Shown here: piece after piece, positions 17,635 through 38,581 of the stretch
Layout of the letters: each line of letters opens with the position of its first letter
Position numbering within the stretch: the stretch's first letter is position 1
Source: Parabacteroides distasonis ATCC 8503
GTDB taxonomy: Bacteria; Bacteroidota; Bacteroidia; Bacteroidales; Tannerellaceae
NCBI RefSeq assembly: GCF_000012845.1
Contig: NC_009615.1
Coordinates: forward strand, 3,474,501-3,538,500
Reading direction: 5' to 3'
Length of the DNA stretch: 64,000 nt
Position numbers and translations under genes: made by a program
The notes under the pieces: model-generated
The model's database searches: none
Told to the model about the DNA's origin: nothing
The model's input: only the letters and a program-made list of their open reading frames with translations

Positions 17635-19401
17635 ATGAAGAAAAACATTGTTTTCCTGTTAATTCTAATACCTATTATATGGATCTCTTGCGACGGAATG
17701 GGCCATCAAACCATAGACTTCCGAAAAATAGAGAACCTTATGCCCCAACATCCGGATAGCGCCTTAATGCTCCTTGAGCAAATAGAGAACAAAGAAAACC
17801 TATCCCGAAAAGATAAGGCACATTATTATTTATTGCTGACGGAAGCGCAAGACAAAACTTTTGTTAAGCATGAAACCGACTCGCTGATCACGATCGCAAC
17901 GGATTATTATGAGGAAACAGACGATCTGGAACGAAAAGCGAAAGCTTGGTATTATAGGGGAAGAATCAGCCAAGATCAGAACCATCCACTAAAGGCCCAA
18001 GAGTGTTATCTAAAAGCCTTACGGGATGAAGAATCGATAAAAGATCACGCTTTACTGGGAAGAGTAAATAACTATATTGGAATACTCTACACTTTTCAAG
18101 ATGTCTACGAAAAAGCGTTATCTTTCCAGAAAAAAGCTGTCTCAAATTTTCGTGCGATTAACGATTCTATCGGTCAAGCTTACGCTTCACGTGATCTAGG
18201 CCGTGTTTATCAAATGCTAGCACTTCCTGATAGCGCAATCGCTTGCTACTTAGACGCAATTGCCCTAATACGATCTTTCGATGAATGGTCTATTTATTCG
18301 GAGTTAGGAAATTTATATATAGAAAAGAAAGATTATTCGCTAGCGAATCAGTATTTAATGAAAATGAAATCATTTTTGGATAGAATGCAAGCGAATAATT
18401 TTTCTGACAATATCGATTTTTCCTTTCATGCGACATTAGGAGACTATTACAATCAAGTAAATAAATTAGATTCCGCTTTATTCTATTTGAATATTTGCAA
18501 AGAACAAACGACAAGGCTAGACACACGTATTTCCGCATATGCCACCCTCAAAAAAATAGCCTATAAGCAAAATGACTGGAAGCAATACGTCCTGTTAGAT
18601 CAGAAATATACAAGTATGCATGATTCTCTTCATGCACAAGGAGAAATGGAATCTATCCGGAAATATCAAGCACTTTATGATCATCAAGAGACAGAACTAA
18701 AACTAACAAAAGAACAAGCCAAGAATGCGGTATCTAATTTGAGGATCATAATCGTTATGATAGTCTGTTTTTTAGTAATTTCGCTATCAACTTATGCTTA
18801 TTTTAAACACAAACAAGAAAAAAGTCAGCTAATTCTTCGACAACAAGAAAAAGATATCCAAAACAAAGAACGATTGTCCATCTATGAAAACCAGATTCAC
18901 GACTATGAAGAACAAATAGCCTTGAATGAGCAAACTTTACATTCTTTGAAAGAACATTTACAAGATCAAAACTTGAAAATAGAGAGTTTGAATACTATGC
19001 GCACGCACTTGGAGAATGAGATACAATCACTCAAACATAAAAAGCATATTCAAGAAAACCGTGCGGAAGAGATAGCTTTTAAAAATTCATCATTATATGC
19101 ACAATTCCATGATAAGAAAAATTGGACACCGGCCCCGGAAGACTGGCAAGCTCTTCTCGATAAAATCGATCTCATTTATCCTACGCTTGCTTCTACATTA
19201 AGTAAAACATTACCCGGATCAACCATCTCAGAGAAACGTTTATGTTATCTACTAAAGATACAAGTAAAGCCAACAGTTATTGCTCGATTGTTATGTTGTA
19301 GCGATACAAATATTACGATGCTACGAAAGCGATTATATAAAAAAGCATTCAACAAAGATGTTCCGGCTAAGGAGTTTGATAGATATATACTTGATATATA
19401 A
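17635..19401 (+). CDS. Membrane-tethered TPR protein with C-terminal helix-turn-helix-like domain
   Basis: The 588-residue protein opens with a lipoprotein-like or signal-anchor segment (IIWISCDG). TPR repeats follow (about residues 40-350), then one transmembrane helix (LRIIIVMIVCFLVISLSTYAYF), a long coiled coil (about 400-490), and a C-terminal domain in which ISEKRLCYLLKIQVKPTVIARLLCCSDTNITMLRKRL looks like a winged or LuxR-like helix-turn-helix. This layout, sensing outside and DNA binding inside, is common in Bacteroidota regulators near peptide or polysaccharide loci. It precedes the RiPP island and may control it, or only the DUF3244 gene that follows. Confidence 0.75.
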   Translation: MKKNIVFLLILIPIIWISCDGMGHQTIDFRKIENLMPQHPDSALMLLEQIENKENLSRKDKAHYYLLLTEAQDKTFVKHETDSLITIATDYYEETDDLERKAKAWYYRGRISQDQNHPLKAQECYLKALRDEESIKDHALLGRVNNYIGILYTFQDVYEKALSFQKKAVSNFRAINDSIGQAYASRDLGRVYQMLALPDSAIACYLDAIALIRSFDEWSIYSELGNLYIEKKDYSLANQYLMKMKSFLDRMQANNFSDNIDFSFHATLGDYYNQVNKLDSALFYLNICKEQTTRLDTRISAYATLKKIAYKQNDWKQYVLLDQKYTSMHDSLHAQGEMESIRKYQALYDHQETELKLTKEQAKNAVSNLRIIIVMIVCFLVISLSTYAYFKHKQEKSQLILRQQEKDIQNKERLSIYENQIHDYEEQIALNEQTLHSLKEHLQDQNLKIESLNTMRTHLENEIQSLKHKKHIQENRAEEIAFKNSSLYAQFHDKKNWTPAPEDWQALLDKIDLIYPTLASTLSKTLPGSTISEKRLCYLLKIQVKPTVIARLLCCSDTNITMLRKRLYKKAFNKDVPAKEFDRYILDI

Positions 19402-19424: not shown

Positions 19425-19462
19425 AAAACTGCACAAATTTTTATTACAAAATGTGCAGTTTT
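19425..19462. terminator. Hairpin after the TPR regulator gene
   Basis: An 11-bp perfect stem, AAAACTGCACA (19425-19435) with TGTGCAGTTTT (19452-19462), encloses a 16-nt AT-rich loop 23 nt after the stop. A/T runs lie on both sides, so it can work as a terminator in either direction. Confidence 0.6.
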
Positions 19463-19489
19463 ATAAAAACAAGTTCATCCTTAAAGTCT

Positions 19490-19497
19490 TACATTTG
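19490..19497 (+). promoter_or_regulatory. -7 promoter box of the DUF3244 gene
   Basis: TACATTTG matches TAnnTTTG exactly and lies 21 nt before the ATG at 19519. It makes the in-frame ATG at 19453 an unlikely start. Confidence 0.5.
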
Positions 19498-19518
19498 CCT
19501 ACAAGAAAATTTAATACC

Positions 19519-19884
19519 ATGAGAAAAAGATTTGCTATTTTATTAGGGCTTATAGCTCTTCTTTCTGTGCAGTTGGTCTATGGAGATCCGGTTGAGACAC
19601 GAGGGAAATGGGGGGATAAATATTATCGCTCAATTAATCCTCTTCCACCTTCATTATCCATACAAGGGAACATTTTGAGTGTGGATTTTATGAATGCGCT
19701 TGAAAACCTAACCATCACTATAACCGACGAACAAGGTACTGTAATAATGGAAGACAACATCTCTGGTGAAACAGGAGAATGTATAACTATCATTTTAAAC
19801 AATGAGAGTACAGGACGATTTTACGTAAAGTTAGAGCATCAGTTAGGTTGGCTTATGGGAGAATTCATCATACAAAATAATTAG
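19519..19884 (+). CDS. Small secreted DUF3244-like protein
   Basis: The start at 19519 (MRKRFAILLG) gives a proper signal peptide ending near VYG and lies after the -7 box; the in-frame ATG 66 nt upstream would precede the promoter. The mature 100-residue chain is beta-rich (LSIQGNILSVDFMNALENLTITITDEQGTVI...GRFYVKLEHQLGWLMGEFII), like the DUF3244 immunoglobulin-like secreted proteins found beside TPR regulators in Bacteroides. It is probably co-regulated with the regulator upstream. The function is unknown. Confidence 0.75.
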   Translation: MRKRFAILLGLIALLSVQLVYGDPVETRGKWGDKYYRSINPLPPSLSIQGNILSVDFMNALENLTITITDEQGTVIMEDNISGETGECITIILNNESTGRFYVKLEHQLGWLMGEFIIQNN

Positions 19885-20083: not shown

Positions 20084-21718
20084 ATGATAATCTACGACCC
20101 CAAAATAGCGATTCTCCTTATAGCTTTTAATCGATCAAATATAAAGCAAGTATTTGATCGCATCAAAGTGGTGAAACCGAGAAGACTATATATCGCAGTA
20201 GATGGATCAACTAATGACACACAGCGTAAAATAAGTAAGGAAACAACGTTCATTGTTTCCCACATTGACTGGGAATGCCAAGTATTTAAACTATATCAGG
20301 AAAAAAATCAAGGATACGACAAACACTGTTTTGATTCGATTTCTTGGTTCTTCGAGCAAGAGCCAGAAGGAGTCATTCTAGAAGATGATTGTGTACCTTC
20401 CATTTCATTCTTTGGTTTTTGTACGACATTGCTGGAAAAGTTCAGACACGATGAACGCATCGGACACATATCCGGAAGCAATTACCAATTCGGGAAAAAC
20501 AGGGGAGACGGTACTTTCTATTATTCAAACCTAACCCACGTATCCGGATGGGCTGGTTGGAGAAGAGTTTGGCAAGAGCACTGCCTTCACGAAAACAAGT
20601 ACGACCTTTTTAAACAATTAGATTACTTATCAAATTTACCCTCTCACGCTCCATTCCAATATCGTTGGAACAGACTCTTCAATATGGCGAATCATGACAA
20701 TGAAGGTTTTTGGGAGGCCAAATATGCTTACACAAACCTTATCAATAATAGATTATCGATCATTCCAAACAAAAATTTAATAACAAAGATCGCATATAAT
20801 GACAAAACGCCCCATGCCATAAAGAATCATCCTTTTACAAACATCAAAAACGAGGAAATCGACCATATTGTTCATCCATCTTTCATCTGTCCGGACATAG
20901 AAGCCGATTTATATTCACAAACCAAAGAATATAATACATCTTTCGAGGAACTGTATATGCCTAAAGAATACTTTTACTTAAAAGAGCACTTTGTCACCGC
21001 AATCCGAAATAATCATATACATCCTAAAATTCCACAGATCATTCATCAGATCTATGAGGATTTAGCGGGACCACCTCCTTCTTTAGTCGAGATTTCCCAA
21101 TCATGGAAAGAGCTAAATCCCGATTGGGAGTATCGGTTTTGGAATAAAAATGATATAGAGACATTTTTGAAAACCTATTATCCGGAATTTATTCCGGCCT
21201 ATAATGCTTTTCCACATAATGTACAACGTTGGGACGCAATCCGGTATTTAATACTTTATAAGTTTGGTGGTCTATATGTAGACATGGATTATGAATGTAC
21301 GGAAAATATCACTCCTATATTATGTAATACAGAATGTGCCATGGGATTGGAACCGGAAGCTCACGCTTTCCGTATCCATGTGCCTTACATTGTTGGAAAT
21401 GCTTTTATGGCGACAGTTCCGGAGCATCCTTATTTCAAAGAGCTGATCGATACTGTATTTTGTACTGAGAAAAATAGCAACATGTACTCTGATCTTTGCG
21501 AGTTGATTCTTAATACAACAGGCCCCTGCATGACCACTCAAGTATACAAAAACAGCAATTATCAAAAGCGTGTGACATTAATTCCAGCAGAACTAATAGC
21601 ACCTCTAACCTATACAGATATAAAAACAATCATAAACAATGAAACAACCAAGAATGTAGAGAGTAAGATAGAGAAGTCATTTGCCATACATTACTTTTTC
21701 GGCAGCTGGCTAAACTAA
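20084..21718 (+). CDS. Two-domain glycosyltransferase (GT-A type plus GT32-like)
   Basis: The 544-residue protein has no signal peptide. Residues 1-300 look like a GT-A nucleotide-sugar transferase (AILLIAFNRSN, AVDGSTND, and the acidic GVILEDDC metal-binding motif). Residues 320-544 look like a DXD sugar-binding glycosyltransferase of the GT32/PF04488 group (IPQIIHQIYED, NPDWEYRFWN, DAIRYLILYKFGGLYVDMDYE with DXD). Both active-site motifs are present, so the protein may add two sugars in succession. It is followed after 29 nt by the LuxR-type regulator and then by the RiPP genes. The acceptor may be a peptide, but surface glycan cannot be excluded. Confidence 0.85.
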   Translation: MIIYDPKIAILLIAFNRSNIKQVFDRIKVVKPRRLYIAVDGSTNDTQRKISKETTFIVSHIDWECQVFKLYQEKNQGYDKHCFDSISWFFEQEPEGVILEDDCVPSISFFGFCTTLLEKFRHDERIGHISGSNYQFGKNRGDGTFYYSNLTHVSGWAGWRRVWQEHCLHENKYDLFKQLDYLSNLPSHAPFQYRWNRLFNMANHDNEGFWEAKYAYTNLINNRLSIIPNKNLITKIAYNDKTPHAIKNHPFTNIKNEEIDHIVHPSFICPDIEADLYSQTKEYNTSFEELYMPKEYFYLKEHFVTAIRNNHIHPKIPQIIHQIYEDLAGPPPSLVEISQSWKELNPDWEYRFWNKNDIETFLKTYYPEFIPAYNAFPHNVQRWDAIRYLILYKFGGLYVDMDYECTENITPILCNTECAMGLEPEAHAFRIHVPYIVGNAFMATVPEHPYFKELIDTVFCTEKNSNMYSDLCELILNTTGPCMTTQVYKNSNYQKRVTLIPAELIAPLTYTDIKTIINNETTKNVESKIEKSFAIHYFFGSWLN

Positions 21719-21747: not shown

Positions 21748-22701
21748 ATGAACCCCATTGAAGAGTCGATCTACCAATATATAAATAATATAATTGAAAT
21801 TTCAGAAGAACAAGAACCTCTTCTGATTCAATATTGTAGAATGTTTTCTGCGGTTATTACTGGTAGTTTTTACGTACTAGATATATCAAAAAAACGTTTC
21901 ATCTATATCAAACCGGATGATTTATTACTATGTGGTTATTCTGTAAAGGAAGCTATGAAACTTAACTTTGATTTATTTCCTCTGATTATCCATCCTGAAG
22001 ATCTATCTTTATGGAACAACTTTTTAGAAATTATCCCTCAACACCTACAAGCATTACATGAAAAGCGAAATGAGATAGATCATATTTCATGTACAGTCCG
22101 CTTGATTCGTAAGAACTCTTATACTAAAGATCCACTATCACAAGTGCTCTACCAAAGAATGATTCCTGTTTGGAAGAATGAAAAAATAAGCTATTTAATC
22201 TGTTCTGTAGAAAGTGTAGCATATAAAAAAAACGGCTTCTACTTACATTACAAAAACTCGCTAACTTATGAAAAATATGAACCTGCAGTCGGTTCTTGGA
22301 GCACACATACAATGAGTCTCCTAAACGAGCGGGAACGAATTTTATTAAATCTTTCCCGGCAAGGACTAAATTCAAATGAGATTTCAGAAACCTTATGTCG
22401 TAGTAAACATACGATACAAAATCAAATCAAGGCCCTATTCGTTAAATTGAATGTTCATTCTATACAAGAAGCCATCGAAAGAGCAAACCATTGTAACCTC
22501 CTACACCCATACAAAGAAAAAAAGATCGATTTTCCAAATGAAACAATACATAGCTCCCCCAAAAAAATCAATAAAAAGTTGATGTGTGAAATACAAATAT
22601 TATTAGATAAAGGTAAAAGCATCCGCTCAATTGCTTCCATGGTCGATATCGCAGAAAGTACAATTCGCAGTTGGATCATAAAGAAACTACTAAGAAGGTG
22701 A
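21748..22701 (+). CDS. LuxR-type transcriptional regulator with a second C-terminal HTH
   Basis: The 317-residue protein has an N-terminal PAS-like region (about 30-170: FYVLDISKKRFIYI, FPLIIHPEDLSLW). A LuxR-type helix-turn-helix follows (LLNERERILLNLSRQGLNSNEISETLCRSKHTIQNQIKALFVKLNV, about 190-240). A distinct C-terminal segment, KSIRSIASMVDIAESTIRSWIIKKLL, resembles a resolvase/Hin-type HTH. It lies directly before the RiPP precursor and its promoter, so control of that gene is the natural guess. Confidence 0.8.
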   Translation: MNPIEESIYQYINNIIEISEEQEPLLIQYCRMFSAVITGSFYVLDISKKRFIYIKPDDLLLCGYSVKEAMKLNFDLFPLIIHPEDLSLWNNFLEIIPQHLQALHEKRNEIDHISCTVRLIRKNSYTKDPLSQVLYQRMIPVWKNEKISYLICSVESVAYKKNGFYLHYKNSLTYEKYEPAVGSWSTHTMSLLNERERILLNLSRQGLNSNEISETLCRSKHTIQNQIKALFVKLNVHSIQEAIERANHCNLLHPYKEKKIDFPNETIHSSPKKINKKLMCEIQILLDKGKSIRSIASMVDIAESTIRSWIIKKLLRR

Positions 22702-22741: not shown

Positions 22742-22772
22742 TTGTTTTTGCGCATTAAATACTATACATTTG
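22742..22772 (+). promoter_or_regulatory. Promoter of the first RiPP precursor gene
   Basis: A -33-like TTG (22742-22744) is followed after 20 nt by the -7 box TACATTTG (22765-22772), a good match to the Bacteroidetes consensus. It lies about 53 nt before the precursor start and after the regulator stop. Confidence 0.6.
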
Positions 22773-22824: not shown

Positions 22825-22992
22825 ATGGAAAAAGACAAAAAGCAAATCCTTGGAAAATTAAAGCTGAATAAGCTTAGTGAGAATGAGTTGGAGAAACGTG
22901 AAATGAGAATCCTAAAAGGTGGATCTGATTGTCCTGATGGCTGCTCTCCAAATACCAGCATATCGAATGCAACTGTTGATAAGTATTCATAA
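22825..22992 (+). CDS. RiPP precursor peptide, GG-Bacteroidales type
   Basis: The 55-residue peptide has a charged leader rich in Lys and Glu (KLKLNKLSENELEKREMRIL) ending in KGG at residues 31-33. A 22-residue core follows, starting SDCPDGCSPNTSISN, with two Cys and several Ser/Thr. This matches the natural-product precursor family that occurs next to a radical SAM maturase and a pseudo-radical-SAM protein in Bacteroidales (TIGR04149-type). The GG site would be cut by the C39 peptidase of the exporter at 34723. It is preceded by a good promoter and followed by a terminator hairpin, so its mRNA should exceed that of the maturation genes. Cys residues could be sites for thioether bonds; Ser/Thr could be glycosylated (inference). 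Confidence 0.85.
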   Translation: MEKDKKQILGKLKLNKLSENELEKREMRILKGGSDCPDGCSPNTSISNATVDKYS

Positions 22993-23050
22993 TCTACTGC
23001 TATCAACATCTACGACTAGTATTATCTTATTACAAAGACTCCAAGTTGTC

Positions 23051-23086
23051 ATATTCAAGGTCTTTACCGACCTTGAATATTTTTTG
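23051..23086 (+). terminator. Intrinsic terminator/attenuator between precursor and maturase
   Basis: A 12-bp perfect stem (ATATTCAAGGTC, 23051-23062, with GACCTTGAATAT, 23069-23080) with a 6-nt loop is followed by TTTTTG. It lies 58 nt after the precursor stop and 45 nt before the radical SAM gene. Partial read-through would give high precursor and low enzyme expression. Confidence 0.8.
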
Positions 23087-23131
23087 AATGTAATGCATAG
23101 AATGAACTTTTTGTTTAATTAATCTACTATA

Positions 23132-24568
23132 ATGAAATCAATAATACATTCCACTGAAAATAACAACTTCTATTTGTATGATACCCAACGCATACTATCT
23201 ATGTTAATACATCCCGAATTAAAAAAAATTCATGAAAAGTCGACAGATATAAATATAGATGCTTATTATTTGAAAAAATACTCTTATCTTGTAAATCATG
23301 GTTTTTTTGGAGAAGCAAAACCTTTTGAATTTAAAGCTAATATTAGCGAAAATAGCATAAAGGAAAATATCACTCAAACGAAAGTTATTGTATTTGAAAT
23401 AACAGATTATTGTAATTTAAAATGCAAATATTGTTCACTAGGTGATTTATACAACTTCTCAAAAAAAGAATCCAAAAATATAAATATAAAATACGCTTTA
23501 AATTTCCTAAGATACATTTTCAATGTAAAACATAAAAAGACCAAATTAACAATTAGCTTTTTTGGGGGAGAACCACTTGTCAATTTTCCTGCTATACAAC
23601 AAATAATAGAAGAAGCGAAACTTTTAAACAAAAACAAAAAATTGGACTTAATGTTCAATATGACAACAAATGCCACCTTAATACACAAATATATCGACTT
23701 TATAGTTGAAAATAATATAGAGTTATTAATCAGTTTTGATGGAAACGAAAAAGCTCATAGTTATCGTACCTATGCAAGCAACAACAAAAATTCATTTCAT
23801 GATGTTTTAATGAATACCGATATGATAAAACTAAAACATCCTAGTTATTTCGATAAATATGTGAATTTTAATGCAGTACTAAATAATCGCAATTCCATAA
23901 AAGGAATTTACGAGTTCATTTATAATAGATATGGTAAAATTCCAAGAATATCACAATTAAGCTCAGATCATATAAATCTTAATAAAAAAAATATTTTTGA
24001 TGATATTTTTCATTCCAGAAAAATAAGCGAGAAGGAATTCCAAAAGGAAGGATCTGACGTATTACCCATAGTAAGTAATCGATTGATCCCATTTAATGAA
24101 TCAAAAAAGTTTTTGAAACATTATTCTCTCAATTTGTATCTTTCAAACACACTCTACTTATTGTATGATTTGATAGATTCCTTCCCAACGGGAACTTGTT
24201 TGCCCTTTCAAACAAGAATATTCTTAAACACGCACAATAACTTGTTACCTTGTGAAAAAGTTAGCTACAAAAACTTTTTAGGCAAAGTAAATGATCATGT
24301 ATTTATTAACATTCCTGAAATTGTACAAAGGTACAATTCTTATTATGTACACTGCAAAAAAGTTTGTCAATATTGCTACGGAGGAAGAGCTTGCTCCACT
24401 TGCTTATTAAGTTTGGATAATCTGGATCAACTAGGTGTAGAGGAATTTGTTTGTCCAGACTTTCAGAATCAAAAAACATTTGAAGATAAACTAAATCGCA
24501 TTTTTTCATATTTGGAAAAATGTCCTAGTGAATTCTTTCAAATAATTAATCATTTAATAACAGAGTAA
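23132..24568 (+). CDS. Radical SAM/SPASM peptide maturase, GG-Bacteroidales type
   Basis: The 478-residue protein carries the radical SAM cluster motif CNLKCKYC (Cys94, Cys98, Cys101), the FFGGEPL SAM-binding motif, and a C-terminal SPASM-type Cys region (CLPFQTRIF, LLPCEKV, then CKKVCQYCYGGRACSTC and CPDF) for auxiliary Fe-S clusters. The N-terminal 80 residues could hold a precursor-recognition domain. Such enzymes form thioether or carbon-carbon crosslinks in precursor peptides; the exact product is not predictable here. The next gene starts inside its stop codon. The coding sequence is strikingly AT-rich. Confidence 0.9.
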   Translation: MKSIIHSTENNNFYLYDTQRILSMLIHPELKKIHEKSTDINIDAYYLKKYSYLVNHGFFGEAKPFEFKANISENSIKENITQTKVIVFEITDYCNLKCKYCSLGDLYNFSKKESKNINIKYALNFLRYIFNVKHKKTKLTISFFGGEPLVNFPAIQQIIEEAKLLNKNKKLDLMFNMTTNATLIHKYIDFIVENNIELLISFDGNEKAHSYRTYASNNKNSFHDVLMNTDMIKLKHPSYFDKYVNFNAVLNNRNSIKGIYEFIYNRYGKIPRISQLSSDHINLNKKNIFDDIFHSRKISEKEFQKEGSDVLPIVSNRLIPFNESKKFLKHYSLNLYLSNTLYLLYDLIDSFPTGTCLPFQTRIFLNTHNNLLPCEKVSYKNFLGKVNDHVFINIPEIVQRYNSYYVHCKKVCQYCYGGRACSTCLLSLDNLDQLGVEEFVCPDFQNQKTFEDKLNRIFSYLEKCPSEFFQIINHLITE

Positions 24569-25737
24569 TGGAAAGAACAAGTGACTATTGGTTTATGATT
24601 GAGCCTTATGTGCATATAAACATTGCAAATGGCTATATGTTATTGTATAACACATTAGACAAAGAAACCATAATCTCTAATAATGAAAAAGTAATTAATC
24701 TATTAGAAGAATTACTTCAAGATGAAAATTGCGGTGTTACCATATTGAAAAATGAGCAATATAGACAAAATGATATACATTCTTTTATTACAAATTTAAG
24801 AGAAAAATACATGGGAGATATTATAGATATATCTTTATCTAAAGGGAAACCTATACAAATATTACCACATACTAATTTCTGCAATAAACGTAACGAAAAG
24901 TATAATTTTATAAAAAATGCCAACTTATTGCATTTTTTAAACGAAATAATCATTCATCTTGATCATATCTTAGATCAAGATAAGCTAATTGATTATTTGC
25001 AGTCAATGCCAGATAATATAACATATAGCATCAGTGGGGATTTAAAACACATTGCTAAATTTGACAAGCTTGTTGATTTTTTGAATCAATATAATTCGTC
25101 AAAAAAAATAATATGCAATTATATTAATTTTGCAATTCCAGCATCAGTATGCAAAAATATTTTTTTATACAAAATACATATTCATTTTCCTATAGATATA
25201 AAACAATTAATCATAACTACACAATCGTTAAAAGATCAGAATAATCTATTTGAACTTATTTTTGATATAGCATCTTTAGATGATTATCTAAAAGCTTGGG
25301 AAATTATCGAAGAATATCAAATTGACAAATATCAATTTAATCCAATATACACAGGGTATAATATCGATTTTTTCAAAGAAAATGTTTTTCTAAAAAAGAG
25401 CGATATATTATCTACATCAATGTCCATTAAAGACTTTTTTATCAAACAAATGATAAATAATAATGACTTTGGGAAAATCAACATAATGCCAAATGGAGAT
25501 GTGCATTCGAATATAAATTATCCAGCATTAGGCAACATATGTACTCATAGTATTTTTGAGTTAATACAGAAAGAAATAGAAGAAGGAAAATCTTGGCTGC
25601 GAGTACGCAATCAAGAGCCTTGCAATGCATGTATTTATCAATGGCTATGTCCGTCTCCTTCTGATTATGAAATAATGATTGGGCAAACTAACCTTTGTCA
25701 TGTAAATATTCATAATCCAAATTGTGAGAATCTTTAA
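24568..25737 (+). CDS. Pseudo-radical-SAM protein, GG-Bacteroidales type
   Basis: The start overlaps the maturase stop by one base, so the two are translationally coupled. The 389-residue protein keeps radical SAM/SPASM-like layout but has no CxxxCxxC motif; the corresponding region reads ILPHTNFCNKRNEKYNF. The C-terminal region still has SPASM-like spacing: NIMPNGDVHSNINYPALGNIC, then CNACIYQWLCPS and CHVN. This is the known pattern of the pseudo-rSAM partner (TIGR04150-type) of GG-Bacteroidales systems. It may bind the peptide or act as a scaffold in a heterodimer with the active enzyme (inference). Confidence 0.85.
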   Translation: MERTSDYWFMIEPYVHINIANGYMLLYNTLDKETIISNNEKVINLLEELLQDENCGVTILKNEQYRQNDIHSFITNLREKYMGDIIDISLSKGKPIQILPHTNFCNKRNEKYNFIKNANLLHFLNEIIIHLDHILDQDKLIDYLQSMPDNITYSISGDLKHIAKFDKLVDFLNQYNSSKKIICNYINFAIPASVCKNIFLYKIHIHFPIDIKQLIITTQSLKDQNNLFELIFDIASLDDYLKAWEIIEEYQIDKYQFNPIYTGYNIDFFKENVFLKKSDILSTSMSIKDFFIKQMINNNDFGKINIMPNGDVHSNINYPALGNICTHSIFELIQKEIEEGKSWLRVRNQEPCNACIYQWLCPSPSDYEIMIGQTNLCHVNIHNPNCENL

Positions 25738-25756
25738 TTCTAAAATATAAAAAGTA

Positions 25757-26932
25757 ATGAAAAATAAAATTATAGCATTATCTGTCCTCCTTTCTATTTT
25801 GAGTGGAGGCTGTGTAAATATGCAACAAAGTAAAGATTTGCTCACAATAGATGTCACAAAAGATTACCCTCAAAAAGAATTTGCTCTCCAAGATATATTT
25901 GATATAGATTATATCCCGCTAGACACCAGTCGTACGTTTACGACTATGGGGTATATGCAAGATATCAGTAAGGATATGATTATTGTCAGAAATCTGAAAT
26001 TATCTTCAGATGGTGATATATTCATTTTTGACCGAAAAGGGAAAGGTATTAGAAAAATAAATAGGCAAGGTTCTGGTTCCGAAGAATATAGCTTTCTTTT
26101 GCGAGTTACCCTAGATGAAGAACATGAAGAATTATTTGTAGTTGATAATCGATCTAAAAAAGTATATATATATGATCTACAAGGTAATTTTAAACGAAGT
26201 TTTAAAAATATAGAAGGGGCATCCTATGATCGGGTTTTCAATTTAGGAAGTGACTATTTAATCTGTAATGATGGAGACAATTTATTTACCGATGAAATCA
26301 AAAACATATTTTATATTATCTCAAAACAGGACGGAAGACTTATCAAAGAAATTCATATTCCATATGACAAGAAAAAAACCAGTTTAATTATTAATAAGGA
26401 ACAGACTAAATCTGCAAGACCTCGAAATGAAGAATTTGTTCCATTTCATGATTCATGGATTTTAATGGATCACTCATCAGATACGATATATCGGGTTTTT
26501 ACTGATAAAAGAGTTGTCCCTTTTATAGCAAGAACTCCTTCCATACAATCAATGGGAACCGAGATATTTCTATATCCATCAGTTCTTACTGATCGCTACT
26601 ATTTTATGCAGACAGTAAAAAAAGTATATGATTTTTCAAGTCGGGTAGGACTTCCAAGAACAGATTTAATGTATGATATGAAAGAAAATATTATCTATGA
26701 ATACTCTCTTTATAATGCTGATTATGTGCATAAAGAATTTGTAAGTTTGGGTTATGGAGGAATAGCCTTTATAAATAAAGAAATAGCCTTTGTTAAAACA
26801 TTAGAAGCACCTGATCTAGTTGATGCCTATAAAAATGGGAATTTAAAAGGCAAATTAAAAGAGATTGCAGCCAGCTTAGATGAGGAATCCAATCCAGTTC
26901 TTATGATTGCAAAATATAAACAAAAGAAGTAA
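25757..26932 (+). CDS. 6-bladed beta-propeller lipoprotein (copy 2 of 5)
   Basis: The 391-residue lipoprotein (lipobox SGGC) has the same blocks as copy 1: YPQKEFALQDIFDIDYIPLD, GDIFIFDRKGKG, LTDRYYFMQT and GKLKEIAASLDEESNPVLM. It lies 19 nt after the pseudo-rSAM gene and 18 nt before the LanC-like gene, inside the putative RiPP operon, which links the propeller family to the peptide system. Base composition is AT-rich like its neighbours, unlike copy 1. The role could be binding or delivery of peptide in the periplasm, but nothing in the sequence proves this. Confidence 0.85.
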   Translation: MKNKIIALSVLLSILSGGCVNMQQSKDLLTIDVTKDYPQKEFALQDIFDIDYIPLDTSRTFTTMGYMQDISKDMIIVRNLKLSSDGDIFIFDRKGKGIRKINRQGSGSEEYSFLLRVTLDEEHEELFVVDNRSKKVYIYDLQGNFKRSFKNIEGASYDRVFNLGSDYLICNDGDNLFTDEIKNIFYIISKQDGRLIKEIHIPYDKKKTSLIINKEQTKSARPRNEEFVPFHDSWILMDHSSDTIYRVFTDKRVVPFIARTPSIQSMGTEIFLYPSVLTDRYYFMQTVKKVYDFSSRVGLPRTDLMYDMKENIIYEYSLYNADYVHKEFVSLGYGGIAFINKEIAFVKTLEAPDLVDAYKNGNLKGKLKEIAASLDEESNPVLMIAKYKQKK

Positions 26933-26950
26933 CTGCCTAGAGTAATTATT

Positions 26951-27610
26951 ATGGAACTAACAAAAATTGCAGATTGGCTTCTTTTAAATGGGACATTAAC
27001 AAAATGCCCAGGATTACTACATGGCAAGTTAGGAATAGCTATTTTCTTCTTCCATTATGCTCGTTATACAGGAAAAACATTATTCGAAGAATATGCATGG
27101 GATTTGATCATGGCAATCCAAGAACAGCTCCATGTAAATTATCGTCCAGATTATGAGAAAGGCATAGCTGGTATTGGGGTAGGGATCAACTATTTATCCT
27201 ACAATAATCTTATTGAGATTGAGGAAGATTTATTTGAGGATTTCGATAAGCGGATGTACCGAGCCGTCATTCACGACCCTTTCCCTAATTACAGTCGTGA
27301 TGAAGGATTGATTGGATATGGATGGTATTGGCTTCATCGTGCCAAAAGCCAAATGAGCAACGAATGTTTATCTTTTATCACAGAGAGTATCAAAAATAAT
27401 AGAAATGATCTATCAGCAAATGAACAACAAGACATATATCTTTTTTTGCGTGCACACACTAGAGAATTAGAGTCGAACAGAATATTTCCGAAGCTTAAAC
27501 CTAGTTTAACATTGGAGAATATGGGGTTATCTGGTGGTTATGCAGGTGAGGGCATGTATAGATTGACTGCCCTTGGAGCAATTGAGACTTCGTGGCAACA
27601 GCTTTTATAA
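26951..27610 (+). CDS. LanC-like alpha/alpha-barrel protein, short and without zinc ligands
   Basis: The 219-residue protein has LanC-like stretches: LLHGKLGIAIFFFHYARYTGK, KGIAGIGVGINYLSYNN, DEGLIGYGWYWLH and a C-terminal MGLSGGYAGEGMYRL. It is about half the usual LanC length, and has only two Cys (residue 19 and one near 139). The Cys...Cys-His-Gly zinc site of lanthionine cyclases is absent. So it probably is not a lanthipeptide cyclase; a glycan- or peptide-binding or other barrel role is possible. It ends 38 nt before the first glycosyltransferase of the RiPP operon. Confidence 0.65.
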   Translation: MELTKIADWLLLNGTLTKCPGLLHGKLGIAIFFFHYARYTGKTLFEEYAWDLIMAIQEQLHVNYRPDYEKGIAGIGVGINYLSYNNLIEIEEDLFEDFDKRMYRAVIHDPFPNYSRDEGLIGYGWYWLHRAKSQMSNECLSFITESIKNNRNDLSANEQQDIYLFLRAHTRELESNRIFPKLKPSLTLENMGLSGGYAGEGMYRLTALGAIETSWQQLL

Positions 27611-27648
27611 TATAAGTTGTAAGTATATTCTATCAACATACCATAAAA

Positions 27649-28896
27649 ATGATTAATCTATATATTTTCTCGAACAAAAGTCGAGGTGGCTTATACGGAG
27701 TAGGTACCTATATTCGTGAATTGATTACCGCCTTGCGAAGTAAAAGTAATAGTATCCACATCCATGTAGTTCACATATTATGTGACCAACTTCAAATCGA
27801 AAAAAAAGAAGTGAAAGATGTTTCATACTGGTATTTCCCAGAGCCGATCTCAAAAGAATGGAATCTTCTAGATCAAGAACAACGAAAAGTTTACTCTCGG
27901 AATATTGTCTATCTACTCAGAAATTATATTCAAGACCAAAAAAATCTAGTTTTTCATTTAAATTCATACAGAGATAAATCACTTGCATTAGAACTAAAAA
28001 TTGCATTTGATTGCAAAGTGATTACTGTCACTCATTTTTCTGAATGGAGTTCAGTTATTCATGATAACTTAGAAAAACTTCGAATTATCTTACGAAAAAA
28101 AGAAACAAATGAATTGGAAGATTTAATCCAAAAATCATTCGAGGAGGAAAGGACATGTTATGAAAGAATGGATCAAGTGATCAGCCTGTCAAACTATATG
28201 CAAGAATTATTGTATCACGATTATGGAGTAGATATAAATCGTATAATAATTATTCCAAACGGAATGAGCGACAAGATAAAAGAAGAAGTTGACCAGAAGA
28301 GATTACGAAAAAAATGGCACTTGTACCCAGAAGAACAAATGATTATTTTTGTCGGACGGTTAGAAGAGATCAAGGGAACTCATTTCTTGATTCGAGCCTT
28401 TCAATTAATTTTACAAGAAAGCCCCAATTGCCGTTTATGGATAGTTGGTGATGGCGATTATCAAAATTCTTTCTCCGAAGCCAATCCTATCTTCTCCAAA
28501 ATAACTTTCACTGGTTTCGTTGATCAAACCTCGCTTTTTGAGTTATACCGTTTAGCTGATGTCGGTGTCGTACCTTCCCTATTCGAGCCTTTTGGTTATG
28601 TACCTGTCGAAATGATGATGCATGAATTACCCATCGTCGCAACCGCCACATCCGGGTTGAACGAGGTCGTAGACGAATCTTGCGGATTGAAAGTACCATT
28701 AATAGTATCTCCTGATAGTGTAGAGATCGACACCTCCCTGTTAGCGCAGAAGATCGTCTACCTATTACAGAACCCGAAAGAAGCGAAACGACTCGGGAAG
28801 AACGGTCGCAAACGGTATTTGGAGAAATATTCCTCGGAAGTATTCGGGAAAAACATGATCGCATTTTATAAATCCTTATTCCAAGAATGTAAATAA
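27649..28896 (+). CDS. GT4-type glycosyltransferase (TIGR04157-like)
   Basis: The 415-residue protein has GT-B fold features: the N-terminal SKSRGGLYGVGTYIRELITAL acceptor region, and the C-terminal FVGRLEEIKGTHFLIRAFQL and VVPSLFEPFGYVPVEMMMHELPIVATATSGLNEVV donor-sugar binding region. From memory, glycosyltransferases of the TIGR04157 family occur with GG-Bacteroidales radical SAM peptide genes, so it may glycosylate the modified peptide. A truncated second copy lies at 31648-31804. The last third is less AT-rich than the first two thirds. Confidence 0.88.
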   Translation: MINLYIFSNKSRGGLYGVGTYIRELITALRSKSNSIHIHVVHILCDQLQIEKKEVKDVSYWYFPEPISKEWNLLDQEQRKVYSRNIVYLLRNYIQDQKNLVFHLNSYRDKSLALELKIAFDCKVITVTHFSEWSSVIHDNLEKLRIILRKKETNELEDLIQKSFEEERTCYERMDQVISLSNYMQELLYHDYGVDINRIIIIPNGMSDKIKEEVDQKRLRKKWHLYPEEQMIIFVGRLEEIKGTHFLIRAFQLILQESPNCRLWIVGDGDYQNSFSEANPIFSKITFTGFVDQTSLFELYRLADVGVVPSLFEPFGYVPVEMMMHELPIVATATSGLNEVVDESCGLKVPLIVSPDSVEIDTSLLAQKIVYLLQNPKEAKRLGKNGRKRYLEKYSSEVFGKNMIAFYKSLFQECK

Positions 28897-28918
28897 TAAT
28901 CAACGAACCTGATACTAT

Positions 28919-30298
28919 ATGGATACGCTCAATCAAATCGACATATCGATCATTATCCCGATATATAACGTGGAGAAATATTTGACGGTTTGTATCGACT
29001 CGTTGAAGAACCAAGGTGGCCTTCGTATGGAGATTATATTGGTTAATGATGGCTCGACTGATTTGTCAGGGGAAATTGCTGATGAATACGCTAAAAAAGA
29101 GGAGCGTATCAAAGTGATTCATCAAGAGAACGGGGGAGCATCCGCAGCCCGCAACGTTGGTTTGGATATTGCCACGGAAGAGTACATCGCTTTTTTAGAT
29201 AGTGATGACTGGATTAAAGATGAATCATTATCTCTTTTATATGATGAGGCGGTGAAACATCATGCCGATGTCGTGATGGGAAATATGTGGCTATGTCATC
29301 AAGACGGAAGTATGGATAAACCTTTTAAATGTATTTCCAACGGATCTATAAAAGAATTGCTTTCCGGTAAAGAAAGTTTCATAGAATTAGTCAAAACTTG
29401 TTTCTATTTGCCCATGCCCTTCAAATACATATACAATAGGAAATATCTGCATAAAATACAGGCTCGTTTTGAGGAAGGCATCATGCATGAGGATGAGTTA
29501 TGGTGTCCCATCGTCCTTTGCCAAGCGGAGAGGATGGTTATCACCAACATTGAGTTTTATTATTACCGCCAGAACGAAGAATCGGTCATGCATACGACAA
29601 GCCTAGCCCGAAGGCTGAAATCATTATTTCAAGTTACTGAGGGATTGATTAAATTCTCTGATCAATTTGTTTCCTCTAAGACGAGCGTTGACTTGAGAAG
29701 CTGGTGGTATGTAAACATCCTCAGGCTTTATTCTAAGGCATTCACACTACTTCCCAACATAAAAGATTCCTCATACATAGTACACAAACATTATCTGGAT
29801 CGATTTTGGAGGGATTGCGGGCAAATGATTCCGGAATCTATACAAAGATGCAGAAATTATTACTACAAGGCAGAAGCCGGGCTGAAAGAATATACGGATT
29901 GGCGTGTGTCTGATTGGGTAGCAGGCGTAGATTGCCAAATAAAGGCTGGTAAAAAAGTGATGCTCGTATTCAACACGATAAATGGGGAAGATCTACAGTT
30001 GAAAATAGAGGATGTACCCGTTGATTGGGTGATAACCACCGACAGGAAATATTTCCAACAGGCGACTATAGTCGTTTTCCACCTTCCCACATTGCATTAT
30101 GAGCTAGAGAATGATCAGGATAAGCTGGAAGGACAAACATGGGTCAGCTGGCATCTGGAGTCCGAAAAGGATGATCCGGGAATCAACGATCCGGAAATAA
30201 GCGAACTATTCGACCTTTTGATAAGTGACCCACAAGATAGCGAGGGTGAACAACATCCATTGCTAAGACTGTGCCGAAATTATGTAAATAATGGATAG
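28919..30298 (+). CDS. GT2-type glycosyltransferase
   Basis: The 459-residue protein starts with a classical GT-A domain: ISIIIPIYNVEKYL, EIILVNDGSTD, GGASAARNVGLDIA and FLDSDDWI (DXD). A C-terminal region of about 200 residues without a clear match follows, ending in an acidic stretch (LINDPEISELFDLL-like). It lies 22 nt after the GT4 gene, and together they form a two-gene glycosylation unit that was duplicated as a pair. The acceptor is not identifiable from sequence; the RiPP context suggests a peptide or its lipid carrier. Confidence 0.9.
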   Translation: MDTLNQIDISIIIPIYNVEKYLTVCIDSLKNQGGLRMEIILVNDGSTDLSGEIADEYAKKEERIKVIHQENGGASAARNVGLDIATEEYIAFLDSDDWIKDESLSLLYDEAVKHHADVVMGNMWLCHQDGSMDKPFKCISNGSIKELLSGKESFIELVKTCFYLPMPFKYIYNRKYLHKIQARFEEGIMHEDELWCPIVLCQAERMVITNIEFYYYRQNEESVMHTTSLARRLKSLFQVTEGLIKFSDQFVSSKTSVDLRSWWYVNILRLYSKAFTLLPNIKDSSYIVHKHYLDRFWRDCGQMIPESIQRCRNYYYKAEAGLKEYTDWRVSDWVAGVDCQIKAGKKVMLVFNTINGEDLQLKIEDVPVDWVITTDRKYFQQATIVVFHLPTLHYELENDQDKLEGQTWVSWHLESEKDDPGINDPEISELFDLLISDPQDSEGEQHPLLRLCRNYVNNG

Positions 30299-30426: not shown

Positions 30427-31596
30427 ATGAAATGGATAATCACAATACCAGCGATCCTCCTCTTTGCGTTAGCGGGATGTGGAAAAGATAAGCAATCGAC
30501 AAATGAGCTTATCACTGTTGATGTTACGGTAAGTTACCCTAAAAAAGAACTAATTCTTCAAGATTTTATGGATGTCGAATATATTCCTTTGGAAACAAAG
30601 GACGATTTTATTTGCCAAGGTCTTGTCCTAGCAATCGGAAAGGATATTATTCTTGCCAGAAACCGAATCAGAGATGGAGATATCTTTATCTATGACAGAA
30701 AAACGGGAAAAGGATTAAAAAAAATAAATAGAGAAGGGCAAGGTGGAGAAGAATATACGTTCATCCAAAGAATTGTGCTTGATGAAAAACAAAATGAAAT
30801 ATTTGTACTCGATCATTTTTCAAGGAAAATATCAGTATATGATTTAGATGGGAATTTTAAAAGAAGCCTTAAACGAGGTGATGAACTCTATTTCTTTCAT
30901 TTATACAATTTCAACCAAACAAGTTTAATAACTAATAATTATTGGGTAACAGACAAGCCTGCTTTTACTATTATATCTAAACAGGATGGAACAACCAAAC
31001 AAATCCAGATTCCATTTAAAGAAAAAATATCAATGGCTGTAAACTATTCTGATAAAGCAAAGGATATATATTACAACGTGATCCCTGATAACTATAATCC
31101 TATAATTCCCTATTTTGATTGTTGGGTACTTGTAGAACAATCATCCGATACAGTATATAAGTACCAATCAGACCATAAAATGATACCGATTATAGCAAGG
31201 ACCCCATCCGTACAATCCATGAATCCGGAAGTATTCCTCTTCCTAGGGATTCTTACTAACCGCTATTATTTTATGGAAACGGTTAAAAAAGAATATAACT
31301 TCGAGACACATGAGGGATTTCCCACTACAGACTTATTATATGACAAACAAGAAAAGGCTATTTTTGAATATATTGTATATAACAACGATTATTCTGAGAA
31401 AAGAGCGGTGAATATGAAATCACTTCCTGTAGACGATAAAATCGCATCTTGGCAAAGTATCGAGGCTTCCCAGCTCATTGAGGATTATGAAAAAGGGAAG
31501 TTGAAGGGACGATTAAAAGAAATTGCCGCAAGTTTAGATGAAGAATCCAATCCGGTAATCATGTTAATAAAACACAAAAAACAAACCAATCCCTAA
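30427..31596 (+). CDS. 6-bladed beta-propeller lipoprotein (copy 3 of 5)
   Basis: The 389-residue lipoprotein (lipobox LAGC, followed by GKDKQ) has the family blocks YPKKELILQDFMDVEYIPLE, GDIFIYDRKTGKG, LTNRYYFMET and GRLKEIAASLDEESNPVIM. Its signal-peptide region is nearly identical at DNA level to copy 4 (32347), while the propeller itself has diverged, so the pair came from the tandem duplication that also copied the upstream glycosyltransferases and spacer. Confidence 0.85.
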   Translation: MKWIITIPAILLFALAGCGKDKQSTNELITVDVTVSYPKKELILQDFMDVEYIPLETKDDFICQGLVLAIGKDIILARNRIRDGDIFIYDRKTGKGLKKINREGQGGEEYTFIQRIVLDEKQNEIFVLDHFSRKISVYDLDGNFKRSLKRGDELYFFHLYNFNQTSLITNNYWVTDKPAFTIISKQDGTTKQIQIPFKEKISMAVNYSDKAKDIYYNVIPDNYNPIIPYFDCWVLVEQSSDTVYKYQSDHKMIPIIARTPSVQSMNPEVFLFLGILTNRYYFMETVKKEYNFETHEGFPTTDLLYDKQEKAIFEYIVYNNDYSEKRAVNMKSLPVDDKIASWQSIEASQLIEDYEKGKLKGRLKEIAASLDEESNPVIMLIKHKKQTNP

Positions 31597-31647
31597 TGGT
31601 TATGAATCCAATGGAGGCTGTCTCTTATAATACAAAAATTGAGAAAC

Positions 31648-31804
31648 AATTATTTTTTTTGCCGATCGGATTGACGAAATAAAGGGTGTGAGTTCTTTGA
31701 TCAAAGCGTTCCATATGGTCTTAGAAGCTCATCCTAATAGTCGTTTGCTGATAGCCGGTAACGGTGATTATACAAGGGCCTTCCAAGAAGCAAAAAATAT
31801 TTGA
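31648..31804 (+). pseudogene. Remnant of a GT4 glycosyltransferase (second copy)
   Basis: One frame reads RIDEIKGVSSLIKAFHM, then PNSRLLIAGNGDYTRAFQEA. This matches EEIKGTHFLIRAFQL and PNCRLWIVGDGDYQNSFSEA of the intact GT4 gene. It has no start region, has a T-run frameshift near its left end, and stops at a TGA (31802-31804) created where it fuses to GT2 sequence. About 50 codons of the 415 survive. Confidence 0.85.
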
Positions 31805-32218
31805 CCACATGCATAGATTCCTTGATGTACCAAGGCGATCTGCACTTGGAGATTGTCTTGGTGGATGATGGCTCGACCGACTTATCCAGAAAGATCGCTG
31901 ACGAATACGCTAAGAAAGAGGATCGTATCAAGGTGATTCATCAAGAGAACGAGGGAGCGTCCGCTGCCCGTAACCCAGGTTTGGAGATTGCCCAAGGTGA
32001 GTATATCGCTTTTTTAGATAGCGAAGACTGGATAAGTTGGAAGGACAAACATGGGTCAGCTGGCATCTGGAGTCCGAAAAGGATGATCTGGGAATCAACG
32101 ACCCGGAAATAAACGAACTATTCGACCTTTTGATAAGTGACCCACAAGATAGCAAGATAGCGAGAGGAAACAACATCCATTGCTAAGCCTTTGCCTAAAT
32201 TATGTAAATAACGGATAG
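31799..32218 (+). pseudogene. Remnant of a GT2 glycosyltransferase (second copy, internal deletion)
   Basis: The left part encodes EIVLVDDGSTDLSRKIADEY...FLDSEDWI, matching GT2 residues about 20-97. It then jumps out of frame to the last 180 bp of the gene (GQTWVSWHLESEKDD-like and NELFDLLISDPQD in another frame), with a short duplicated CAAGATAG. The intact gene spans 1,380 bp; here about 420 bp remain. Short shared sequence at both junctions (ATTTGAC and GGAT) points to microhomology deletions. The 105-codon open frame starting inside it at 31801 is not a functional gene. Confidence 0.85.
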
Positions 32219-32346: not shown

Positions 32347-33540
32347 ATGAAATGGATAATCACAATTTCAGCGATCCTTCTCTTTGCGTTAGCGGGATGT
32401 GGAAAAGATAAACAATCAACAAATGAACTCATCACAGTTGATGTTACAAAGAATTATCCTGAAAAGGAATTGACACTACAGGATTTCATGGATGTGGAAT
32501 ACATCCCGTTGGAAACAAATGATGAGTTTGTTACCCAAGGCAAAGTAATGGCCATTGGTGCAGAAGTTATATTAATAACCAACTGGGCCAACGACGGGAA
32601 TTTGTTTGTTTTTGACAGAAAAACCGGCAAAGCCTTGAAGAAGATAAACAGGAAAGGGCAAGGTGGCGAGGAATATGTAGGTATTACGGAGGTTGTTCTG
32701 GATGAGGCAAACAAGGAAATATTTGTTATAGCCTATACCGGAAGTAAAATCTCTGTATATGATCTATACGGAAATTTTAAAAGGAGTTTCAAAGCCGAAG
32801 GTACGGAATCTCATATAAATACATTTAATTACGACCGGGATAATTTGATCTCTTATGTACCAGATAATAGTCTGGAAAACCCGTCAAACGCCATACCTCC
32901 ATATTATTTAATCTTTTCCAAGCAGGATGGAAGTATCACCCGGAAAATATCAATTCCTTTTGATGAAGTTAAAAGCCCGGTCGCAAGAGATGGGGAAAAC
33001 TGGGAGAACTGGGCCGCTCCAGTACCAACCGCCATGTATCAAATAGTTCCAGATCATACCAATTGGGTACTTATGGAGACATCATCCGATACCATATACC
33101 ACTATTTGCCGGATGCTAATACGACAATCCCCCTTATCGTAAGAACCCCCTCCATACACTCCATGGATCCTCCTGAAGTATTTCTTATACCAACCGTTTT
33201 TACCGACCGTTATTATTTCATGAGCCTGTTGAAAGCGGAATTTAATTTTGAAACAGGGAGAGGGTTTCCAATTTCCGGATTGATGTACGATAGACTGGAA
33301 AATTCTTTATTCATACCTAAAATATACAATGGTGATTATACCAGCAAAAGAGAAGTGGATATGACGTCGAGACCTTTAGATCCGGAATTCGTAATCGGAC
33401 AGTCATTGCAAGCCCACGAACTTGCCGAGGCTTACGGGAAAGGACGATTGAAAGGCAAACTGAAAGAGATCGCAACTACATTGGATGAAGAGTCTAATCC
33501 GGTGATTATGCTGATAAAACATAAGAAAAATAAATACTAG
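32347..33540 (+). CDS. 6-bladed beta-propeller lipoprotein (copy 4 of 5)
   Basis: The 397-residue lipoprotein has the lipobox LAGC with GKDKQ following. Family blocks are YPEKELTLQDFMDVEYIPLE, GNLFVFDRKTGKA, FTDRYYFMS and GKLKEIATTLDEESNPVIM. It has a small insertion around residues 205-235 (ENWENWAAPVPTAMYQ) relative to copy 3. The next copy starts 1 nt after its stop, so the two were meant to be translated from one mRNA. Confidence 0.85.
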   Translation: MKWIITISAILLFALAGCGKDKQSTNELITVDVTKNYPEKELTLQDFMDVEYIPLETNDEFVTQGKVMAIGAEVILITNWANDGNLFVFDRKTGKALKKINRKGQGGEEYVGITEVVLDEANKEIFVIAYTGSKISVYDLYGNFKRSFKAEGTESHINTFNYDRDNLISYVPDNSLENPSNAIPPYYLIFSKQDGSITRKISIPFDEVKSPVARDGENWENWAAPVPTAMYQIVPDHTNWVLMETSSDTIYHYLPDANTTIPLIVRTPSIHSMDPPEVFLIPTVFTDRYYFMSLLKAEFNFETGRGFPISGLMYDRLENSLFIPKIYNGDYTSKREVDMTSRPLDPEFVIGQSLQAHELAEAYGKGRLKGKLKEIATTLDEESNPVIMLIKHKKNKY

Positions 33541-33541
33541 C

Positions 33542-34686
33542 ATGAAAGTAAATTTAATTTCAGTAGTCCTCCTCTTTGCCTTAGCGGGATGTGGAAAAGA
33601 TAAGCAATCGACAGACGAGCTTGTCACGATCAATGTTAGCAAAGATTACCCAGAAAAGGAGCTAATCCTTCAGGATATTATGGATGTGGAATATATTGCG
33701 CTGGAAACGACTGACGAATTTATCACACATGGTAATGTCATGGATGTCGACGAAAAATTTATAATAGTAAAAAACAACACAAACGACGGGAACATATTCA
33801 TTTTTGACCGGAAAACGGGAAAAGCTATACGGAAAATAAACCGTTTAGGACAAGGTGTCGAGGAATATCCGGGGATTGCAGGAATTACACTAGATGAGGA
33901 AAACAATGAGCTATTTGTTACACATACAGGGAAAATATCAGTATATGATTTAGACGGGGACTTTAAAAGAAGCTTTAATTTCCTAGACCCCGAAAGTGAC
34001 TACCTTAAGGTTTTTAATTATGACAAGGATAATCTGATCACTTATGATAACAAAGGCTATGGAATGGTGGCAGACCAACAGCCTTATCATTTGATTATCT
34101 CAAAGTATGACGGAAGTATTATCCAGAAAATTACAATTCCTTCTAAAGAACAGAAAACACTGGTTATATTCGGAGATAATGATCAAAAAGTAATTCCTAC
34201 TTTTTTTGCTACAACCGCCACTTCCGATAATTGGATACTTATGAATCTCTCATCCGATACCCTATATTCCTATTCGCCAAATGGTCATATTAAACCTTTT
34301 ATCGTGAGGACACCCTCTATATATTCCATGGATACAGAAATATTTCTTTTTGTAGAGGAGGTGACAAGCCGTTATTATTTTATGAGAACCGTAGAAAAAA
34401 ACTCGATATTAAAACGAGAAAAATACCGGTGAGTAGGTTGGTATACGACAAACAGGAAGATTCTATATTCAAATATCAAATATATAATACTGATTTTTTA
34501 TATCAAAGACCGATCTATTGGATTTCATCTATTAATCAAGATATCGCGAACTGGTATCCCTTTGATGCGCCTGAACTGATTGAGGCTTATAAAGAAGGGA
34601 AGCTCAAAGGTAGGCTAAACGAAATCGCGACGAAATTGAATGAGGATTCCAATCCCGTCATAATGCTGATCAAGTATAAGAAATAA
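33542..34686 (+). pseudogene. 6-bladed beta-propeller lipoprotein (copy 5), frameshifted
   Basis: The first frame (33542-34432) gives a lipoprotein start (lipobox LAGC) and most of the propeller up to YYFMRTVEKN. The matching end, SRLVYDKQEDSIFKYQ to GRLNEIATKLNEDSNPVIM, is in the next frame (34429-34686). The shift lies at or just after a run of seven A (34395-34401). Joined, the protein would be about 380 residues, as in the other copies. It is either a recent inactivation, a sequencing slip, or A-run slippage that still yields some full-length product. Confidence 0.8.
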
Positions 34687-36918: not shown

Positions 36919-36947
36919 TCACTTAACAATCTAAATATGCAAATACC

Positions 36948-38261: not shown

Positions 38262-38313
38262 ATAAGATTATAATAAAAAGGCTATTTATTTAAAAACTTA
38301 ATATCATTGCGTT

Positions 38314-38577: not shown

Positions 38578-38581
38578 ATTT

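Follow-up and report, generated by a model that had tools for sequence, protein, structure and literature searches.

Clusters that join a radical S-adenosylmethionine (rSAM) enzyme to a LanC-like protein and a glycosyltransferase have been mined in Bacteroidales (biosynthetic gene clusters BGC3-5 and Table 1 in the consulted sections of PMC10352776), and the combination rSAM+LanC+GlyS is reported there for strains of Parabacteroides distasonis. Sactipeptide-like clusters of Bacteroides uniformis and Bacteroides fragilis likewise pair a TIGR04149 precursor with two rSAM proteins and, in B. uniformis, with an exporter and an HlyD-type protein (PMC4573289, in the parts consulted). Here we describe a locus of P. 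distasonis ATCC 8503 that lies in a 64,000-nt stretch of the forward strand (NC_009615.1, positions 3,474,501 to 3,538,500; referred to as the window) and that appears to direct the synthesis of a ribosomally synthesised and post-translationally modified peptide (RiPP). This kind of cluster is already in print (PMC10352776), and the window locus is a member with useful features. As far as the consulted sections describe them, the published Bacteroidales clusters share its pseudo-rSAM protein, zinc-less LanC, glycosyltransferase (GT) and GG leader, whereas the window locus also contains a second module of rSAM enzyme and precursor as well as an exporter, and LanC-GT fusions in its relatives tie LanC and GT together. 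For the B. uniformis and B. fragilis clusters, unlike the window locus, the parts consulted name neither a LanC nor a GT. In agreement with an earlier note on this DNA, which had called the product uncharacterised, a search of the open-access literature (which lacks most subscription journals) retrieved no characterised product.

All seven genes proposed in that note were found at their expected positions on the + strand (Table 1), and the four NCBIfam families it had suggested (TIGR04148, TIGR04149, TIGR04150 and TIGR04157) each scored above the curated cut-off in one gene run, as in the GG-Bacteroidales rSAM RiPP system; the profile scores thus support a GG-leader rSAM RiPP cluster. The gaps from the rSAM gene through the GT2 gene measure -1 to 38 bp, and the precursor is separated from the rSAM gene by 139 bp. 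The end point at 30298 proved too early, as the locus reaches 41096: ATP-binding cassette (ABC) and HlyD exporter genes with a second rSAM module between them occupy 34723-41096, and both of these, together with the LanC-GT pairing, had been overlooked. Judged by sequence, the locus thus encodes a precursor, a SPASM maturase, a motif-less radical-SAM-like partner, a LanC-like protein, two GTs and a peptidase-type exporter. We give an even chance to the reading that it makes and secretes a ribosomal peptide through two-protein radical-SAM crosslinking, LanC-like/GT glycosylation, Gly-Gly cleavage and shared ABC/HlyD export, in which the chemistry, the order of steps, the sugar and the function of the lipoproteins are what we infer.

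Table 1. Coordinates of the features of the locus in the window, with profile scores and cut-offs in bits (L-numbers denote fetched loci and G-numbers genomes)
Feature	Position	Strand	Evidence
TPR protein, likely regulator	17635..19401	+	BT3442 family 94.2, far under cut-off 940
Small exported-type protein	19453..19884	+	homologues adjoin TPR in L013, L014, L023, L029
DXD glycosyltransferase	20084..21718	+	PF04488 67.3 (cut-off 23)
LuxR-type helix-turn-helix (HTH) regulator	21748..22701	+	PF00196 39.5 (cut-off 23.5)
Promoter-like TTG-N20-TACATTTG	22742..22772	+	motif scan
Precursor peptide, 55 aa	22825..22992	+	TIGR04149 59.4 (cut-off 25)
Terminator-like hairpin, 12-bp stem and T run, between precursor and maturase	23051..23080	+	
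Radical SAM/SPASM maturase	23132..24568	+	TIGR04148 416.4 (cut-off 300)
TIGR04150 partner	24568..25737	+	TIGR04150 453.4 (cut-off 250)
DUF5128 6-bladed beta-propeller lipoprotein	25757..26932	+	PF17170 94.0 (cut-off 22.9); lipobox-like LSGGC read from sequence
Half-size LanC-like protein	26951..27610	+	PF05147 LANC_like 30.8 (cut-off 23.2)
GT4 glycosyltransferase	27649..28896	+	TIGR04157 535.7 (cut-off 400)
GT2 glycosyltransferase	28919..30298	+	PF00535 Glycos_transf_2 135.9 (cut-off 23.3)
Paralogous DUF5128 lipoprotein	30427..31596	+	PF17170 120.9
GT4 and GT2 pair remnants	31643..32183	+	broken matches: GT4 53 aa; GT2 114 and 54 aa
Paralogous DUF5128 lipoprotein	32347..33540	+	DUF5128 profile built in this analysis
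Shortened DUF5128 copy	33542..34432	+	304- and 130-aa frames; match continues in another frame past 34294
C39-type peptidase ABC exporter	34723..36918	+	TIGR01193 405.9 (cut-off 523.85), TIGR03796 462.2 (853.3), both below
Second radical SAM/SPASM maturase	36948..38261	+	SPASM TIGR04085 60.1 (cut-off 27)
Second precursor, 87 aa, GG leader	38314..38577	+	TIGR04149 14.5, under 25
Protein with SusC/RagA TonB-plug-like C-terminus	38582..39814	+	TIGR04056 41.2, TIGR04057 27.6, both under cut-off
HlyD-type periplasmic adaptor	39804..41096	+	TIGR01843 99.5, under 208.65

The 55-residue precursor proposed in the earlier note was confirmed by its TIGR04149 score, and has a predicted leader of 33 residues ending in GG and a predicted core of 22 residues (SDCPDGCSPNTSISNATVDKYS, encoded at 22924-22989). 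The CxCxC..DN..AN core that is common in the wider GG-Bacteroidales family, as read by eye, is absent from the window precursor, whose core has two cysteines and a Tyr at one of its two final positions. Conservation of the precursor frame, proposed as a check in that note, was borne out in 64 of 81 related loci, although the profile was partly built from loci that it counted, rendering this count partly in-sample; the NCBIfam counts are not. These 81 loci comprise the window and 80 kept out of 499 confirmed loci among the matches listed, many on short contigs, and within 10 kb also held a partner (79), a DUF5128 gene (38), a LanC-like gene (31) or any GT4/GT2 gene (32). In the 30 loci flanked on each side by 8 kb or more, the corresponding numbers were 25 for the precursor, 29 for the partner, and 17 each for DUF5128, LanC-like and GT. 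Across 59 related genomes, TIGR04149 was found in 12/12 with an over-cut-off TIGR04148 match and in 4/47 without (one of these four having a sub-cut-off match; Fisher p 1.6e-9, ignoring relatedness). Across 148 genomes of the order (minimum completeness of 90 requested), it was found in 9/12 that had a TIGR04148 match (one of these 12 matches scoring under the TIGR04148 cut-off) and in 7/136 without. As G046 had a TIGR04149 match in the 59-genome scan only, these counts are lower bounds. The association of TIGR04148 with TIGR04149 is not due to chance.

The TIGR04148 maturase carries CxxxCxxC at residues 94-101, a GGEP motif and SPASM-type cysteines at 356, 374, 412, 415, 421, 424 and 441. Its next-best families included CcpM (180.7 bits), PapB ranthipeptide (111.9), RumMC sactipeptide (83.3) and SCIFF thioether (74.4), and its nearest solved sequence is CteB, a thioether-former of the SCIFF type that shares the SPASM fold. 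Because the enzyme is of the SPASM type, the core holds two cysteines and the nearest solved relative forms thioethers, crosslinking of the product is plausible from sequence, and TIGR04148 would form thioethers between the two core cysteines and nearby residues. For the ranthipeptide and sactipeptide clusters studied in PMC9576775, no modified product was reported. A SPASM sequence alone does not reveal the radical-SAM chemistry, and the maturase might instead install a C-C or ether crosslink at a conserved C-terminal Tyr (Tyr-Trp in a sister group), or epimerise a residue. We regard this alternative as rather unlikely. It draws on a Tyr within the last 10 residues of all 14 known clade cores (leaving out L049, a near copy of L017), and on weaker matches of the maturase to the cyclophane-forming families YhhB (63.7 bits) and GrrM/OscB (51.0 bits). 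However, the same 14 cores have at least two Cys near their start, and both the next-best families and the nearest solved sequence argue against a non-thioether chemistry.

In a tree of 17 ingroup maturases, a sister group of L015, L099, L096, L123, L017 and L049 (support 81/91, not starred) had cores bearing Tyr-Trp and no GT after the partner or lipoprotein, with L049 showing a GT4-like fragment upstream. In the remaining rows, which form no single supported clade, 9/9 known cores had Tyr as their last or second-last residue, and LanC and GT genes lay downstream in 9 of the 10 with a visible flank (the contig of L016 ends first). The C-terminal Tyr, noticed before it was tested, was matched in 1 of 200,000 shuffles that ignored relatedness. 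Of three cores added after the pattern had been noticed, two terminate in AY (L126 and L127) and one in YWKA (L123). As L127 has the Tyr and lacks both LanC and GT, this residue is not strictly tied to the GT.

The TIGR04150 partner of the window lacks the CxxxCxxC motif and retains SPASM-type cysteines. In the wider family of these 'pseudo-rSAM' proteins, CxxxCxxC and a fourth Cys occurred as an all-or-none block in about half of those aligned (27 of 55, comprising the window protein and 54 of 68 partner open reading frames (ORFs) from loci L011 to L090), and this block showed no link with either GT or the maturase N-domain. The structural model of the partner adopts a radical-SAM/SPASM fold, and its N-terminal domain aligns to CteB and TigE (the alignment ranges giving first and last residue only), suggesting a RiPP recognition element (RRE)-like domain. 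Of 80 maturases, 36 have no room for such a domain while their same-locus partner retains it. We read TIGR04150 as a leader-binding subunit that would grip the leader via its RRE-like N-domain and offer the core to TIGR04148. In SCIFF/CteB, a single enzyme holds both the RRE and the chemistry, whereas in the window locus these are possibly split over two proteins.

The LanC-like protein is an alpha/alpha toroid with a half-size cyclase fold from which the zinc triad (Cys, Cys-His) is absent. An alignment of 26 such proteins (the window and 25 of 26 LanC-like ORFs) contained neither a column with Cys in more than 50% nor a nearly invariant His, and the same held among 29, in which one N-terminal His occurred in 15. 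Because this half-size cyclase fold is without zinc ligands, the protein probably serves glycosylation rather than ring closure, and as a former zinc cyclase it might present GT4 (and GT2) with the peptide for addition of the sugar. Closure of lanthionine rings, to which the LANC_like match and the LanC fold could point, is hardly credible: the match spans positions 7-178 of the 350 in the profile, zinc ligands were not conserved when sought in the alignments, and no dehydratase was found among 20 window proteins (a subset of its ORFs) scanned against NCBIfam. With the triad absent, we rejected a lanthionine cyclase role for this gene. As in glycocins with their SunS-type GT2, a GT accompanies a Cys-containing exported peptide, but the GT2 enzyme of the window scored 22.0 bits against the S-glycosyltransferase model TIGR04195 (SunS; cut-off 350). 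Its C-terminal part is weakly similar to the N-terminal domain of GT10 fucosyltransferases (PF17039, 27.5 bits, under the 28.7 cut-off).

LanC-like and GT genes tend to co-occur (both in 15 loci, LanC only in 2, GT only in 2, neither in 11; Fisher p 1.1e-4) and are sometimes fused, as in L011, where LanC and GT4 parts lie in one gene. Fused genes carry one label each, so that the numbers given for LanC and for GT are minima. Sixteen loci that were duplicates or overlapped others were excluded from the survey of TIGR04157 matches with LanC-like neighbours and from the precursor-DUF5128 pairing counts given below. Presence of the ABC gene showed no link with GT. Combining these elements, we tentatively propose an obligate two-protein maturase, in which a dead or four-Cys TIGR04150 would bind the leader and TIGR04148 perform the chemistry, alongside a LanC fold that has lost its zinc site and would form one half of a peptide glycosyltransferase, presenting the peptide to it, yielding a thioether-crosslinked glycopeptide. 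We know of no such two-job split in other RiPPs.

Several observations weigh against the main reading of crosslinking, glycosylation and export. Neither the product nor its crosslink or sugar has been seen, and although 48 Pfam families matched the 55 partners, the 25 of them that were listed include no PqqD/RRE family. The LanC-GT link was not significant when allowing for relatedness (5 independent pairs, of which 4.0 agreed and 0.2 disagreed, with a median p of 0.125; tested the other way round, 6 pairs, of which 3.8 agreed, none disagreed and 2.2 showed no difference, again with a median p of 0.125). Moreover, the earlier note had named absence of the GTs from most loci with the same maturase pair as a refuting outcome, and while its GG-leader rSAM cluster and conserved precursor stood, the GT link did not hold as stated: of 14 TIGR04148 matches in the 148 order genomes, only 3 had a TIGR04157 gene at a distance of 5 kb or less (E 1e-70 or better; a lower bound, as some of the 14 are on short contigs). 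Because it was absent near the other 11, the GT is not essential to the maturase and is an accessory of some branches, that of the window included. Two further TIGR04157 matches, L131 and L132, have LanC-like neighbours and lack a TIGR04148/TIGR04149 match nearby. These last two findings, together with the endoglucanase resemblance suggested for such LanC proteins in the consulted part of PMC10352776, would suit GTs and a LanC-like protein that act on a cell-surface glycan or lipid, or in immunity, and are merely housed in the operon of an unglycosylated crosslinked peptide; we consider this somewhat doubtful. Finally, the similarity of cores to their lipoproteins (r 0.69) is not separable from shared ancestry and shows no tracking within L100.

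DUF5128 lipoproteins are recurrent neighbours of the precursors: 29 of 92 precursors have a DUF5128 gene within 293 bp downstream, and of 74 DUF5128 genes of at least 300 aa, 29 follow a precursor and 13 a partner. L100, a single TIGR04148 locus, has four precursor genes, and behind every one of them lies a separate DUF5128 gene; for BGC5, the consulted part of PMC10352776 likewise describes a putative signalling protein after each precursor. Such gene-by-gene pairing suits a role of the lipoproteins in immunity or as receptors, and one of these two functions is likely. Co-divergence of cores and paired DUF5128 proteins was discarded as evidence of immunity, as the leaders (r 0.61, 0/5000 shuffles) behaved much like the cores (0/5000). 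The decayed GT4/GT2 genes at 31643-32183 and the broken DUF5128 copy at 33542-34683 give the impression that entire units were duplicated and then lost. These remnants could also mean that the cluster is decaying and makes no product now. This is very unlikely, given the open frames of the precursor, maturase, partner, lipoprotein, LanC, GT4, GT2, ABC and HlyD genes, the catalytic motifs present in maturase and exporter, and the near identity of the exporter genes to those of a second locus.

This second TIGR04148 locus (L091) lies at C1:3825493 of the same genome. Its ABC gene is 97.6% identical over 2153 nt (window 34764-36916) and its HlyD gene 99.4% over 1283 nt (39813-41095), whereas the maturases of the two loci are only 32% identical (via L001; the maturase of that contig, L067, is identical to that of L091). 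In the second locus HlyD directly follows ABC, while in the window the two genes are separated by the second module. This could reflect either insertion of the module between ABC and HlyD or recent copying or homogenisation of the exporter genes between the two loci. The C39-type assignment of the ABC protein rests on a DSMDCGPSC motif read from its sequence; it would cleave after Gly-Gly and export the product of ~22 residues, and the second precursor/maturase pair may use the same exporter. The second precursor, which ranked second of 1755 small window ORFs (E 0.11), has seven core Cys at 3, 10, 17, 27, 36, 43 and 50, with a spacing of 7 residues in 4/6 intervals, and its matches in the fetched loci were at leader level only (best other E 0.0053). 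The second maturase scored 217.1 bits against the Clo7bot model TIGR04334, under the cut-off of 600, and was found only in G000 among 296 class genomes at E 1e-65, and in G091 and G097 besides G000 among 59 family genomes at E 1e-40 (best 35% identical). Beside one relative of it, L107 has a GG-leader ORF (2858-3166) with a Cys at about every fifth residue. The TonB-plug-like protein sits between the second precursor and HlyD.

Upstream of the first precursor, the second element of the promoter-like sequence starts 60 bp and ends ~50 bp before the ATG, and the pattern, modelled on the Bacteroidetes-type consensus TAnnTTTG, has 7 + strand matches in the window, this one among them. The hairpin that follows the precursor gene might cause the precursor to be made in excess over the enzymes. 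The 139-nt gap has a z of -2.85, and the hairpin scan overall yielded 14 sites versus 13.0 expected in shuffles. The hairpin was dismissed as a general feature, since among 15 loci only the window, L016, L091, L098 and L096 have one (stem of at least 12 bp, at most 1 mismatch, T-rich tail). Further upstream, homologues of the LuxR-type HTH protein precede precursors in L015, L016, L096, L098, L123 and L127. The small protein at 19453..19884, which gave no match in the NCBIfam scan, is presumably of the DUF3244 type, and TPR (tetratricopeptide repeat) and DUF3244-labelled genes are likewise found upstream in L013, L014, L023 and L029.

Radical-SAM clusters of the TIGR04148 family occur in several Bacteroidales families, many of whose members are gut bacteria. 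P. distasonis ATCC 8503 can be cultured, and because the core is short and has only two cysteines, crosslink and sugar should be readable from one mass spectrum. The locus thereby makes two general ideas testable, namely that a radical-SAM maturase may be split over two proteins, and that the LanC fold may have been reused for peptide glycosylation.

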